Shown here: positions 13,206 to 59,339 of the stretch, piece by piece
Position numbering within the stretch: position 1 is the first letter of the stretch
Layout: every line of letters starts with the position of its first letter
Origin: Lachnospiraceae bacterium
Lineage (GTDB): Bacteria; Bacillota; Clostridia; Lachnospirales; Lachnospiraceae
Direction of reading: 5' to 3'
Length of the DNA stretch: 64,000 nt
Assembly (NCBI GenBank): GCA_017938315.1
Contig: JAGBBV010000037.1
Location: 47,665-111,664 of the forward strand
Notes under the pieces: generated by a model
What the model was told of the DNA's origin: nothing
What the model saw: the letters and a program-made list of their open reading frames with translations, nothing else
Database searches by the model: none
Position numbers and translations under genes: made by a program

Positions 13206-13515
13206 TAATTAAATAGTTGATTGATTAAGAAAAGCAATGATAAGAAGAAGTAACATAAAGGGAAACATACAGAAAGTTGCCGGTTGATGAGAGGCGCATG
13301 GGAAGCTTTATGCGAATACATCTTTGAGCTTCGCACCAAAAGACTTACGTCCGGTAGGCTGCGACGGTTCCTGCACCCGTTAACGTGCTAGAGTATAAAC
13401 CATTAAAAATAAATTGGTCGTACTCGAAGAGGTAAACAGTGTGAACTGTTTATAAACTTTAGGTGGTATCGCGAGAATGTACTCTCGTCCTATTGAAGGA
13501 CGGGAGTTTTTTGTT
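13206..13515 (+). promoter_or_regulatory. T-box riboswitch controlling tyrS
   Basis: About 300 bases of leader with the marks of a T-box: a stem I region with GATGAGAGGCGCATGGGAAG, the antiterminator T-box sequence AGGTGGTATCGCG (13461-13473), and a terminator with 10-bp arms CTCTCGTCCT/AGGACGGGAG (13482-13506) and six T. A TAC triplet at 13317-13319, inside GCGAATACATC, is the likely specifier codon and matches tyrosine. Uncharged tRNA-Tyr pairing with the specifier and the T-box bulge should let transcription read into tyrS. Confidence 0.93.
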
Positions 13516-41314: not shown

Positions 41315-41399
41315 TACTTTTTTTCCTCCCTTTATAAATAGTAATTGAATAAATTATAAAAAATTTGTGAACAAAAAAAAACGGAAAAAGTCTATATAA

Positions 41400-41444
41400 A
41401 GACCCGAAAAACTCTAGATTGTAAATGTAGAGTTTTTCGGGTCT
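41400..41444 (-). terminator. Perfect 17-bp hairpin between yesN and the binding-protein gene
   Basis: Arms AGACCCGAAAAACTCTA/TAGAGTTTTTCGGGTCT, 11-base loop, beginning 2 bp after the yesN stop codon. On the minus strand TTTATATAGACTTTTT follows. It is a likely terminator or processing site that separates the regulatory genes from the transporter genes. Confidence 0.72.
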
Positions 41445-41446
41445 GT

Positions 41447-43063
41447 TTAAACATCCTTTTCCGCGCCTTCGATTTCTCCGGCGTTTTTGCGGTATTTTGC
41501 CGGTGTACAACCTTTTTGTTCAATAAAACGGGTGATAAAATAATCGGTATCATGATATCCAACTTCTTCTGCTATCACACTGATTTTTTTATCCGTCCTA
41601 AGAAGAAGCTGTGCCGCTTCGTTAATTCTGTAATTACTCAGATAATCCTTAAAAGATTGTCCGTATTTTTTCCTGAATATCTGTCCCAAATAAGAACTGT
41701 TGACAAAATATTTTTTGCTCAGTCCCTTCAAAGTCAGGTTTTCCGCAAAATGCTCTTTCACTTCTTTTTCCACCTCTAAAAGAACCCCTCTGGACACATT
41801 CTTTCGCAGTTGGATTAAGTATTCTGCATATTCGCAGGCAAATCTTCTCATATGTGCCCGGCTGCCCCTGGAGATGCCGGAATCAAATACATTATCACTG
41901 ATATAAAGCATGACTTCTTCCTGATCTACCGATTCATCCTGCTCTACTGCCAGATGAATCAACTGGAATAACAGATAATTTGTATTCATGGAAACAATTT
42001 CCCCTGTCATTCCCATACTTTCCATTTCATTGAACAGTTCATCAACGCTATTATTGATTTCCACACGGTCATTCTGTTCCACCGCTGAAACCAGACTATC
42101 CAGACTTTGTTTACACAAAACCACCTTGTTTTGGTTTACATGAACCTCTTCTTCATAATAATAGATATTCTTTTCCGCCTTAAATCCCTTAAAAGGCTTT
42201 AGCATACAAGCACTACTGTAGGAATTGGAAATTCTCGCAATATCTTCCACTTCTTTTCCCACCAGAAGAACTACATTTTCACTGATATCACCGGATGCCG
42301 CTTCATAAAGTTTCTCCATGAAGCCTACCATGGACATTTCCCTCTCTTTTGTCATATGCTCACTGAGCAAAAGCCCGATTTCATGTTCATCCTCATACCC
42401 GGGCATTTCACAGATAAGATGTGCCTTATCTTCCCCAAGAAATCTCTTTACATTATGAACCAATTTCTCTTTCAGCAGTTTCAGTTCCTCATCGGACAAA
42501 TCCTCCAATTGGGAAAGATTATCAAGTCCGATATGCACATATCTGAGTTTACCGGAAAGATCCATATTTTCTTTCACATACTTTAAATCCGCATTTTCAT
42601 ACTTTCCTGTTAAAAGTGCATTTACATTTTGCATCAGATAGAGCTTTTCAATCTTCCGGTTTTCATCTTCCTGCTTTAAAGTCACCGCTTTCTGCCTTGC
42701 TACCGTACGTAACACTTCAAGCAGTCCTGCTTTCTGTACCGGTTTTACCATATAATCCATACAGGAATAACGGATTGCTTTCTGGGCATATTTAAAGTCA
42801 TTGTATCCGCTTAAAATCACAAAAAAGGCATCAGAAACTTCCTCTTCCCTAATGGTCTGTAAAAGTTCCAGTCCTGTCATAACCGGCATTGTAATATCCG
42901 CGATAATCAAATCCACCGGGTTTTCCCTCAAGTAATCCAGTGCCTCTTTTCCGTTTGACGCCATCTTTACAATATCAAATCCTTCTGCCTGCCAATCAAT
43001 CAGCACGGAAAGTCCCTGTAATATAAAAGGTTCATCATCCACAAGCAACACTTTCATGTTCAT
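41447..43063 (-). CDS. yesN: AraC-type response regulator (YesN-like)
   Basis: 538 residues. Receiver domain 1-125 with acidic pocket Asp9-Asp10-Glu11 (LLVDDEP) and phosphorylated Asp56 (IIADITMPVMTG); a long middle region of about 130-430; and two AraC helix-turn-helix units at the end (FAENLTLKGLSKKYFVNSSY and KISVIAEEVGYHDTDYFITR). It receives phosphate from the YesM kinase encoded 19 bp upstream and should switch on the transporter and hydrolase genes when oligosaccharides are sensed outside. The ATG chosen has GAGGG ten bases upstream. Confidence 0.92.
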   Translation of the reverse strand: MNMKVLLVDDEPFILQGLSVLIDWQAEGFDIVKMASNGKEALDYLRENPVDLIIADITMPVMTGLELLQTIREEEVSDAFFVILSGYNDFKYAQKAIRYSCMDYMVKPVQKAGLLEVLRTVARQKAVTLKQEDENRKIEKLYLMQNVNALLTGKYENADLKYVKENMDLSGKLRYVHIGLDNLSQLEDLSDEELKLLKEKLVHNVKRFLGEDKAHLICEMPGYEDEHEIGLLLSEHMTKEREMSMVGFMEKLYEAASGDISENVVLLVGKEVEDIARISNSYSSACMLKPFKGFKAEKNIYYYEEEVHVNQNKVVLCKQSLDSLVSAVEQNDRVEINNSVDELFNEMESMGMTGEIVSMNTNYLLFQLIHLAVEQDESVDQEEVMLYISDNVFDSGISRGSRAHMRRFACEYAEYLIQLRKNVSRGVLLEVEKEVKEHFAENLTLKGLSKKYFVNSSYLGQIFRKKYGQSFKDYLSNYRINEAAQLLLRTDKKISVIAEEVGYHDTDYFITRFIEQKGCTPAKYRKNAGEIEGAEKDV

Positions 43064-57249: not shown

Positions 57250-57292
57250 ATAATCCCCTTCCGTTTTTTTACTCTCTCTACTATATGCAAAA

Positions 57293-57781
57293 CCTTACCA
57301 AAACGTACGAGCCGCTCACGTCACTACATTCCGACTGCGTATGCAATAATCTTTCTTATAAAAAGCTTTTTAGAACTTTTCGTCAGATTTTTTAGAAACG
57401 CCCTGTTCATAAATGCACTGCCGGTCGTGACTGTCCGAAAAGCTGTCATTGTAACTGTGCAGAACTGATAAAACTTTTAAGAAAAATCTAATAAGAACAC
57501 TTTAAAGATGCAATAAACAAGCCATTCCAAAACTTGCTCCGCTTCGAACAGTTGGAATGGCTTGTACATTTTTTAAAGTGTTCTTATTGATTTTTTACAA
57601 AAGTTTTAAAAGGCTCTGAGCACATGTTACAATTGACAGCTTAAGTTGCACGACGGGCAGTTAATAGGCATATGAACAGGGCGGGTTCAAAAAATCCAGA
57701 AAAGTGATATAAGCTTTATAAGAAAATTATTACAAAGCAGCCGGAATGCAGTAGTATGACGGCTCGTATGCTTTGGAAAGG
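57293..57781. repeat. Giant foldback palindrome (about 490 bp) between clpX and the subtilase gene
   Basis: Nearly the whole gap is one imperfect inverted repeat centred near 57541. Matching pairs from outside in: CGTACGAGCCG (57304) with CGGCTCGTATGC (57760); ACGCCCTGTTCATA with TATGAACAGGGCGGGT; CACTGCCGGTCGTG with GCACGACGGGCAG; GCTGTCATTGTAAC with GTTACAATTGACAGC; ATAAGAACACTTTAAA with TTTAAAGTGTTCTTAT; AAGCCATTCCAA with TTGGAATGGCTT. The loop is about 20 bases. It has no convincing ORF. It begins 2 bp from the clpX stop codon. It could be a MITE-like foldback element or a long structured RNA. Confidence 0.85.
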
Positions 57782-57782
57782 A

Positions 57783-59339
57783 CTAGCCTTCGATTAATTT
57801 TACATCGTCAGGATTTTCGCTACTGATACTGCGGATATCGATAACAGGTCCACCGGTGCCTTCAATATATTCCCTGGTAATGGTGACCTTTCCGATATTG
57901 TCATCCTTGGGGATTTCATACATGATATCCAGCATGAATTCCTCGATAATGGCACGCAGTGCCCTGGCACCGATTTCTTTTTTCATAGCCTTCTCGGCAA
58001 TTGCTTCCAGTGCACCTTCATCAAAGGAAAGCTGCACCTCATCAAGTTCAAGGAGTTTTTGATACTGTTTTAAGATCGCATTCTTAGGCTCTCTCAAAAT
58101 CTTAATCATCATTTCCTTATCCAGTGCCTTAAGTGTATATACAATGGGAAGTCTACCTAAAAATTCCGGAATCATACCAAACTTCTTTAAGTCCTCTATG
58201 GTTACCTGGCTTAATATGTTGCTTTCCTTATCAAATTTATCTTTCAGTTCGGCATTAAACCCAATGGATGTCTGTTTGCGGAGTCTTTGTTTAATAATCT
58301 CCTCCAAATCAGGGAACGCACCACCGCATATAAACAAAATATTTCTGGTATTGATGGTTGCAAGGGGTACCATAGCATTTTTGCTGTTTGCGCCAACCGG
58401 CACTTCCACTTCTGCCCCTTCCAAAAGACGGAGCATACCCTGCTGCACACTTTCCCCGCTGACATCACGGTTGGTTGTATTTTTCTTCTTAGCAATTTTA
58501 TCAATTTCATCAATAAAGATGATTCCACGTTCTGCCTTTTCCACATCGTTGTCTGCTGCCGCCAAAAGTTTGGAAACAACACTTTCAATATCGTCTCCGA
58601 TATAGCCGGCTTCCGTAAGGGATGTAGCGTCCGTAATGGCAAGGGGCACGTCCAGTAATTTGGCAAGAGTCTTAACCAGATATGTTTTACCGCAACCGGT
58701 AGGTCCAATCATGAGCATATTGGACTTTTCAATCTCAATCTCATTCATGGTTCCTGTCGCCACTCTTTTATAATGATTATAAACGGCAACGGATATCACT
58801 TTCTTTGCATGCTCCTGTCCGATAATATAATCATCCAGCTGGGCCTTGATTTTATGCGGCGGAGGGATATTTTTAATGTCTAAGACAGGTTCACCGGATG
58901 TCTTTTCTTTTTTCTTTTTTAATTTCTGTTTATTGGGGATTCCGCCTTCTCCCTGCAAATCTGAGATGTTCACAAAGCGGATATTGGGAAATCCTTTATC
59001 CGACATACTTTTGTTTAAATCACCCATAAATGAAGGGTTATTTAACATTCCCTGATAATCAAACTGGCTGACCGTATCCATGGTTTTATGCATACAGTCA
59101 TTACATACGCAGATGTTATTGGGAAGTTTAAACATCTTGCCTGTCTTACTTTCCGGTCTGCGGCAAATAAAGCAAACATCTTCATATTCGCTTTCTCCGC
59201 CTTTATCTCCTGTTTCCGGCTTTTCTTCTTTTATCTCCTCTACAGATAATTCTTCTTTCGACGTTCCATCTGCAGCCACCTCATCTGCTTCATGGGATGA
59301 CTCAAAAAGTTCTTCGTCTTTTTCATTATAGTCTGACAT
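57783..59339 (-). CDS. clpX: ClpX-like AAA+ unfoldase with acidic N-terminal extension
   Basis: 518 residues against about 420 in ordinary ClpX. The first 53 are an acidic tail, followed by the zinc-binding domain (Cys56-x2-Cys59, Cys79-x2-Cys82), a lysine-rich linker (about 135-150) and the AAA+ core: Walker A GPTGCGKT at 212-219, pore loop GYIG at 245-248 (usually GYVG), Walker B IIFIDEI at 273-279 and the IGF loop at 359-361 that docks on ClpP. It should unfold proteins for ClpP. No clpP, lon or cytoplasmic tig is beside it, so it may be a second ClpX. ATG with GAGGAATT. Confidence 0.9.
   Translation of the reverse strand: MSDYNEKDEELFESSHEADEVAADGTSKEELSVEEIKEEKPETGDKGGESEYEDVCFICRRPESKTGKMFKLPNNICVCNDCMHKTMDTVSQFDYQGMLNNPSFMGDLNKSMSDKGFPNIRFVNISDLQGEGGIPNKQKLKKKKEKTSGEPVLDIKNIPPPHKIKAQLDDYIIGQEHAKKVISVAVYNHYKRVATGTMNEIEIEKSNMLMIGPTGCGKTYLVKTLAKLLDVPLAITDATSLTEAGYIGDDIESVVSKLLAAADNDVEKAERGIIFIDEIDKIAKKKNTTNRDVSGESVQQGMLRLLEGAEVEVPVGANSKNAMVPLATINTRNILFICGGAFPDLEEIIKQRLRKQTSIGFNAELKDKFDKESNILSQVTIEDLKKFGMIPEFLGRLPIVYTLKALDKEMMIKILREPKNAILKQYQKLLELDEVQLSFDEGALEAIAEKAMKKEIGARALRAIIEEFMLDIMYEIPKDDNIGKVTITREYIEGTGGPVIDIRSISSENPDDVKLIEG

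Follow-up and report, generated by a model that had tools for sequence, protein, structure and literature searches.

The clpX–subtilase foldback

The stretch of DNA analysed here (the window) comprises 64,000 nt of a Lachnospiraceae contig. Between clpX (57783–59339, minus strand) and the adjacent subtilase gene lies a 489-nt foldback (57293–57781); both gene names are putative labels from an initial annotation made from the sequence. The ClpX protein gave one strong match per genome in 37/37 congeners. The initial annotation had described a gap that folds on itself around a loop of approximately 20 bases, with no credible ORF in either half, and each of these points is borne out: the best self-inverted alignment of the region covers 57293–57781 with 392 of 453 aligned columns identical, the apical loop maps to 57530–57550 and no ORF of at least 60 aa is present within the foldback. 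The two halves are far better matched than shuffled sequence (score 319, maximum 42 in 300 mononucleotide shuffles), with arms that differ from each other by ~13 %. RNA folding of 57285–57790 returned −220 kcal/mol (100 dinucleotide shuffles: −108.87±5.27; z=−21.09, 0/100 as low).

The foldback had been placed 2 bp from the clpX stop codon; in fact, a single base (57782) separates them. The element therefore presents a hairpin directly behind a stop codon, as an intrinsic terminator would, while its other end lies 43 nt from the subtilase start codon. A scan by 800-nt frames returned 57293–57781 as the top-scoring inverted repeat of the window. The runner-up elsewhere (score 80) is an 82-nt inverted repeat at 41382–41463 that forms a small nested hairpin, with an inner stem of GACCCGAAAAACTCTA/TAGAGTTTTTCGGGTC and an outer pairing of CGGAAAA/TTTTCCG. 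At the gathering score, Rfam matches the window only once, with a T-box leader (13228–13495, plus strand, 110.7 bits).

A dispersed repeat at gene 3′ ends

Searches of the genome itself and its congeners, as had been suggested, revealed dispersed copies. The genome carries ~7 copies, of which five are whole (the clpX copy, one each on contigs C27 and C28 and two on C7) and two are split over four contig ends. Family members are ~440–500 nt long and have diverged in sequence across related gut bacteria. A covariance model of the inner part of the element (R1), built from 17 copies, matched at E≤0.01 in 13/37 congeneric genomes (the match in G009 being weak and that in G027 running over N-filled sequence) and in 7/299 genomes drawn from the bacterial family, own genome included. 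One of these seven, G177, has eight R1 loci that carry neither the loop motif nor the H2 motifs described below; they are probably unrelated hairpins, and G177 was discarded as a relative. The clpX site lacks the element in 28 of the 30 congeneric clpX loci examined (own included), and the copy is present at the same place in G017, an independent bin.

The copies are placed non-uniformly with respect to genes. Of 83 loci of the genus, 12 lay at a contig edge or had no gene nearby and were dropped, and the 14 from other genera were not counted, giving 71 placed copies: 38 between convergent, 26 between tandem and 7 between divergent neighbours. Convergent pairs make up 7/49 adjacent gene pairs in the window; there is thus a large excess of convergent placement among the copies, in counts where orthologous copies are not independent and genes were called as simple ORFs. 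A stop codon faces the element in 64/71 placed copies. The median distance to the nearest one is 7.5 nt, and in 48 copies it falls within −40 to +60 nt.

Nested architecture of the element

Comparison of the copies resolved the clpX element into layers, which from the tip outwards are an apical loop, an inner module (H1), an outer module (H2) and a pair of outer arms. The apical loop AAACTTGCTCCGCTTCGAACA (57530–57550, plus strand) is the least variable stretch in the core alignment, and its motif occurs in 85/97 loci. It tops H1 (57462–57619, plus strand; R1 score 173.1 bits), which is nested in the loop of H2. Alignment of copies places the left half of H2 at 57376–57455 and its right half, which contains GGGCAGTTAATAGGCAT, at 57635–57705 (both plus strand); the left and right motifs were each found in 45/97 loci. 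Together, these modules form a shared core of ~354 nt (57363–57716, plus strand) that can be aligned with other copies, its limits being estimated from two recent paralogous copies. Across the family, the core measures ~350–380 nt, and other close paralogous pairs have 349–381 nt in common. Outside the core lie the outer arms on the subtilase side (57293–57362) and the clpX side (57717–57781), both with approximate inner limits. They pair with each other, and the subtilase-side arm cannot be aligned with copies at other sites, in keeping with the rest of the family, where outer arms are paired within a site but unrelated across sites.

H1 and H2 are separable, standing side by side in four G031/G032 copies of ~640 nt (L199, L201, L195 and L196), while H2 was seen by eye to occur without H1 in G032_C27 and G033_C119. 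The internal loop is closed in G000_C7a, G012_C7 and G018_C22.

Of 19 stretches with the H2 motif, 17 come from metagenome bins of Lachnospiraceae or Bacillota; the other two, from Cyclobacterium and Paucibacter, may be chance matches. In other families of the order, the apical loop (AAACTCGCTNCGCTCARACA) also caps hairpins whose stems are unrelated (L302–L320 and others). Among 116 genomes drawn from the order, own included, 8 contained the loop pattern and a reversed control pattern gave 0 matches; of the 25 loop matches outside the own genome, 16 loci were examined, and in 13 the loop was centred in an inverted repeat of 180–284 nt. Genome G135 has 14 hairpins topped by the AAACTCGCTNCGCTCARACA loop. 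Carriage by phages or plasmids was considered and set aside, since the clpX foldback had no match in the plasmid and phage collections; 28 viral contigs contain the loop motif, but only in 2/28 does it lie at the centre of an inverted repeat of at least 60 nt. A second small hairpin (E2) was also dropped as a widespread partner, its pattern being found at only 3 places in 2/37 genomes by a search pattern that misses variants seen by eye.

Outer arms and the question of mobility

The two recent copies of the own genome are informative with regard to the arms. One lies between typA and mgtE and the other behind mnmA (these names, like hrcA and nfeD below, are putative identifications from the proteins). 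Each copy is split by the assembly over two contigs, and the pairing of contig ends agrees with gene order in relatives. A central stretch of 141 nt is identical in both, perhaps as a result of the word length of the assembler, and the rest of the core is ~93 % alike. Outside the core, nothing relates the two sites, but at each of them the left arm matches the right. Among the 97 loci, 22 have both edge motifs, and the outer arms are clearly paired in 20/22, G017_C72 and G007_C40b having been anchored wrongly. The arms reach 40–80 nt and some extend into coding sequence.

Two origins of the arms may be envisaged. At the mnmA site, the far arm resembles the inverted last codons and stop of mnmA (15/18 bases), a modest match whose local score was equalled by 6/2000 shuffles. 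The outer arms at the typA site of the own genome carry A and T tracts like those of a bidirectional terminator, and the arms at the typA and G000_C7a sites resemble ordinary terminators, suggesting that there the arms may predate the insertion. The arms may thus have come from a flank that was copied in inverted form or from a hairpin that was already there and took up the insert, and the two routes perhaps operate at different sites.

Insertion into hairpins is also what a miniature inverted-repeat transposable element (MITE) might do, and a non-autonomous foldback transposon was among the initial proposals for this gap. According to this explanation, a transposase favouring hairpin loops or terminators would insert the core, and the outer arms would represent the target hairpin. 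MITEs (reviewed in PMC10969869) are likewise short, non-coding and dispersed and have inverted repeats. The dispersal of non-coding copies and the clpX sites without the element speak for this part of the proposal, as do the alike cores of the two recent copies at sites with unrelated arms and the terminator-like arms at typA. The four ~640-nt copies, moreover, have common ends bearing TTAACGTTTAGC-like inverted sequences. A further point in its favour comes from the typA terminator of G017 (L288), which holds an extra nested hairpin, small and different from the element, flanked by TGGGTA/TACCCA; the same terminator in G007 (L287) lacks it, and the pair reads as the filled and empty site of this other hairpin.

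However, MITE ends are expected to be conserved terminal inverted repeats, and here the outermost bases vary between sites in the subgroup to which the window's copy belongs: the outer arms of the two recent copies are unrelated and the arms vary across aligned copies, so that the arms of this subgroup are site-specific. The length of the arms and their entry into coding sequence also count against a MITE, as does the lack of any longer relative with an ORF among 38 own-genome matches. By eye, no direct repeat indicative of a target-site duplication was noticed, the mnmA site pointing instead to an inverted copy of the gene end. A Y1/RAYT transposase was rejected as the mover because it shows no association with the element (Y1 transposases in 7/13 R1-matching and 14/24 non-matching genomes). 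Given that end sequences vary from site to site and that neither the Y1 comparison nor the 38 own-genome matches pointed to a mobilising gene, MITE identity is not established, and we regard it as somewhat unlikely.

Pairing is kept while the sequence changes

The stem is maintained despite extensive sequence divergence. In an alignment of 73 rows (71 distinct) that was fitted to the model and hence leans towards it, 95.4 % of cells are paired, with two-sided changes at 44/48 model pairs (686 cells). The covariation score was 0.600, whereas shuffling gave 0.187±0.006 and sliding the partners no more than 0.136. Four rows proved to be reverse-strand matches of copies already present and were removed from the pairwise-change counts, leaving 69 rows with one per locus. 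Among copies that are 90–95 % identical, two-sided Watson–Crick changes affect 3.7 % of pairs (0.12 % expected under independence) and one-sided changes 4.4 %. Over shorter times, one-sided changes predominate: two sister-species pairs showed 21 one-sided vs 2 two-sided and 15 vs 0, respectively, suggesting that repair is slow. The palindrome nevertheless accumulates fewer substitutions than its surroundings between sister species (32/466 inside vs 31/169 outside, and 18/489 vs 11/168).

Copying from arm to arm would be expected to leave tracts. Two-sided changes are abundant, but multi-base runs are scarce; in the 90–95 % class, there are 68 single changes vs 2 runs of two. Multi-base tracts would be the most direct mark of template switching; isolated two-sided changes could equally come from selection on pairing.

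An assembly or amplification artefact, i.e. a chimeric foldback, is highly improbable. Contigs of the own genome do end inside copies, and those relatives with H2 motifs in this genus that can be named are all metagenome bins; against this, the clpX copy recurs at its site in the independent bin G017, its arms are not identical and copies covary across genomes.

The centre of the element is frequently inverted

The initial annotation had raised the possibility of a recombination-prone hairpin, and the orientation of the centres bears this out. Among 22 orthologous pairs with both flanks aligned, a set that excludes pairs in which a single flank matched and one pair whose flanks contradicted each other, the centre has the same orientation in 13 and the opposite orientation in 9, clpX being among the reversed. 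Sister genomes G025 and G033 account for five pairs of each kind. We mapped five flipped pairs, and in each, the flanks are colinear while the central 264–404 nt match in reverse; in G025_C53/G033_C91, 325 nt are reversed at 92.9 % identity within colinear flanks. At clpX, the G017 copy is reversed over 385 nt (79 % identity).

A reversed match could also arise through replacement of the core by another copy. True inversion requires that orthologous cores be mutually nearest, and three of the four flipped G025/G033 pairs agree with this among the copies compared; in the remaining pair, a paralogue lies just as close. At clpX, hrcA and nfeD, the orthologous cores show no greater similarity to each other than they do to other copies; hence, core replacement could mimic inversion at these sites.

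Strand preference and the RNA alternative

A stem selected as RNA might tolerate G.U pairs in preference to the A.C mismatches seen when the other strand is read. In the family orientation, we counted 109 G.U vs 111 A.C mismatches (17 copies), and a lenient alignment of 93/97 loci gave 639 vs 608. Over all 48 model pairs the counts were 126 vs 61, with the excess sitting in pairs that are less than 80 % Watson–Crick; pairs at or above 80 % gave 60 vs 52. When read in the direction of the adjoining gene, for the 14 copies with such a direction, the counts were 97 vs 83. A strand-specific RNA is therefore only weakened as a candidate, the counts being mostly balanced but including the excess over all model pairs, and frequent inversion of the centre would make near-balance compatible with selection on RNA.

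The suggestion that the gap holds the gene of a long double-stranded RNA finds no support, because the mismatches show little strand preference and the orientation relative to genes is variable. A broader alternative is a structured RNA (or DNA hairpin) under selection, which would be produced by transcription from the neighbouring gene and recognised by way of its paired stem and apical loop, for instance by RNase III, by another protein or in termination. Strong covariation, the position of copies at gene 3′ ends, the G.U excess over all model pairs and a nearly invariant apical loop that recurs on unrelated stems beyond this family, within the order, would all suit such an RNA. Balanced against these are the lack of a clear G.U excess both within well-paired helices and in the direction of the adjoining gene, the orientation flips and the search results: Rfam 15 gave no match to the foldback at gathering score, and permissive searches brought up only hairpin precursors of plants and animals, whose weak similarity fell well short of the gathering scores and is not credible as a match. 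Furthermore, the internal unpaired columns of H1 have a mean conservation of 0.65 compared with 0.75 for paired columns (conservation being measured on the first 69 of the 73 alignment rows, one of which is a reverse-strand duplicate). This runs counter to the structured RNA, and conserved asymmetric loops were accordingly dropped as proof of selection. Overall, we consider the structured RNA unlikely.

A palindrome proposed to be maintained through its own arms

Our favoured reading, to which we assign a probability of about 0.55, is that the clpX gap is one copy of a dispersed, non-coding, quasi-palindromic repeat that sits at gene 3′ ends in a group of Lachnospiraceae and is maintained via its arms. 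Template switching between the arms, or their recombination, would preserve the palindrome, invert it and probably extend it. Both a classical MITE with conserved ends and a strand-specific double-stranded RNA gene fit the data less well.

In single-stranded or extruded DNA, one arm may act as template or recombination partner for the other, such that arm-templated copying would correct mismatches and copying or recombination between the arms would turn the centre round. Copying that runs past the core would lay an inverted copy of one flank on the opposite side, and the palindrome would grow until a stop codon or promoter is reached. Between gene ends, a symmetric hairpin can act as a terminator on either strand, which could be why the element is tolerated or kept. 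Template switching would jointly explain the kept pairing, the reversed centres, the lack of a clear strand preference and why the site-specific arms end where coding sequence begins. The centre could just as well be flipped when the arms recombine or are processed as a cruciform. The near-invariant apical loop suggests selection in addition, as pure mutation leaves its conservation unexplained. In a more ambitious version, a hairpin core would spread without a transposase into the loops of hairpins at gene ends; replication template switching alone would then make it grow, repair itself and flip, adding nested layers until coding sequence is met. We regard this version as quite unlikely.

The processes invoked have precedents. 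When the template is switched between the two arms of an inverted repeat, the arms are reported to become alike and the spacer to be reversed (PMC8604942); new stems are reported to arise in this way too, and existing ones to be extended and repaired (PMC8794818). The arm homogenisation, spacer inversion and stem growth that template switching predicts run parallel to the favoured reading, and the spacer is reversed in 9/22 pairs. The reports concern short repeats or rRNA stems, whereas here, the process would act over hundreds of bases in a repeat family; in particular, the yeast spacer inversions reported in PMC8604942 measure 2–5 bp compared with 260–400 nt in our pairs, which counts against the favoured reading.

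Relation to known repeats

Palindromic repeats at gene ends are already known. The intergenic stem-loops of low-GC Firmicutes (Petrillo et al. 2006, PMC1590033) likewise sit at gene 3′ ends, favour convergent genes and have been proposed as bidirectional terminators. As described, that survey dealt with stems from 12 bp, loops of 5–100 nt and one bulge or mispair, whereas the present elements form a ~440–500-nt multi-copy family with internal loops, nested modules and inversion. REP, BIME and REPIN sequences with their RAYT transposases (PMC2817692, PMC3116915) are dispersed extragenic palindromes, as here, but REPs are short (20–40 bp; PMC3733652), abundant and linked to a Y1 transposase, while the clpX foldback is 489 nt long, is present in ~7 copies and shows no Y1 association. 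The use of REP sequences as insertion-sequence targets (PMC1525189) offers a comparable case of one element inserted at the palindrome of another; in our case, hairpin modules lie inside hairpins with no transposase gene within. A repeat search described in PMC10434271 allowed gaps of 0–10 bp and at most one mismatch, settings with which a clpX-type element would not be seen whole. We found no description of the clpX-foldback family itself in Rfam or the open-access literature.

Long palindromes are usually considered unstable in bacteria; the ~490-nt foldbacks appear to persist in several species at sites that correspond, and at 5/10 sister-species sites the centre is reversed. If the favoured reading is true, the family records in nature how templates are switched between inverted repeats, and strong covariation, normally accepted as proof of a functional RNA, can arise at the DNA level.

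Contigs end inside or shortly after copies in G000 (C2, C8, C9 and C40) and G018 (C57 and C5), and such palindromes are therefore probably undercounted in draft genomes. Finally, three G033 copies (L192, L209 and L229) are missing part of the element that the sister species has, which suggests that copies decay through deletions inside the palindrome.
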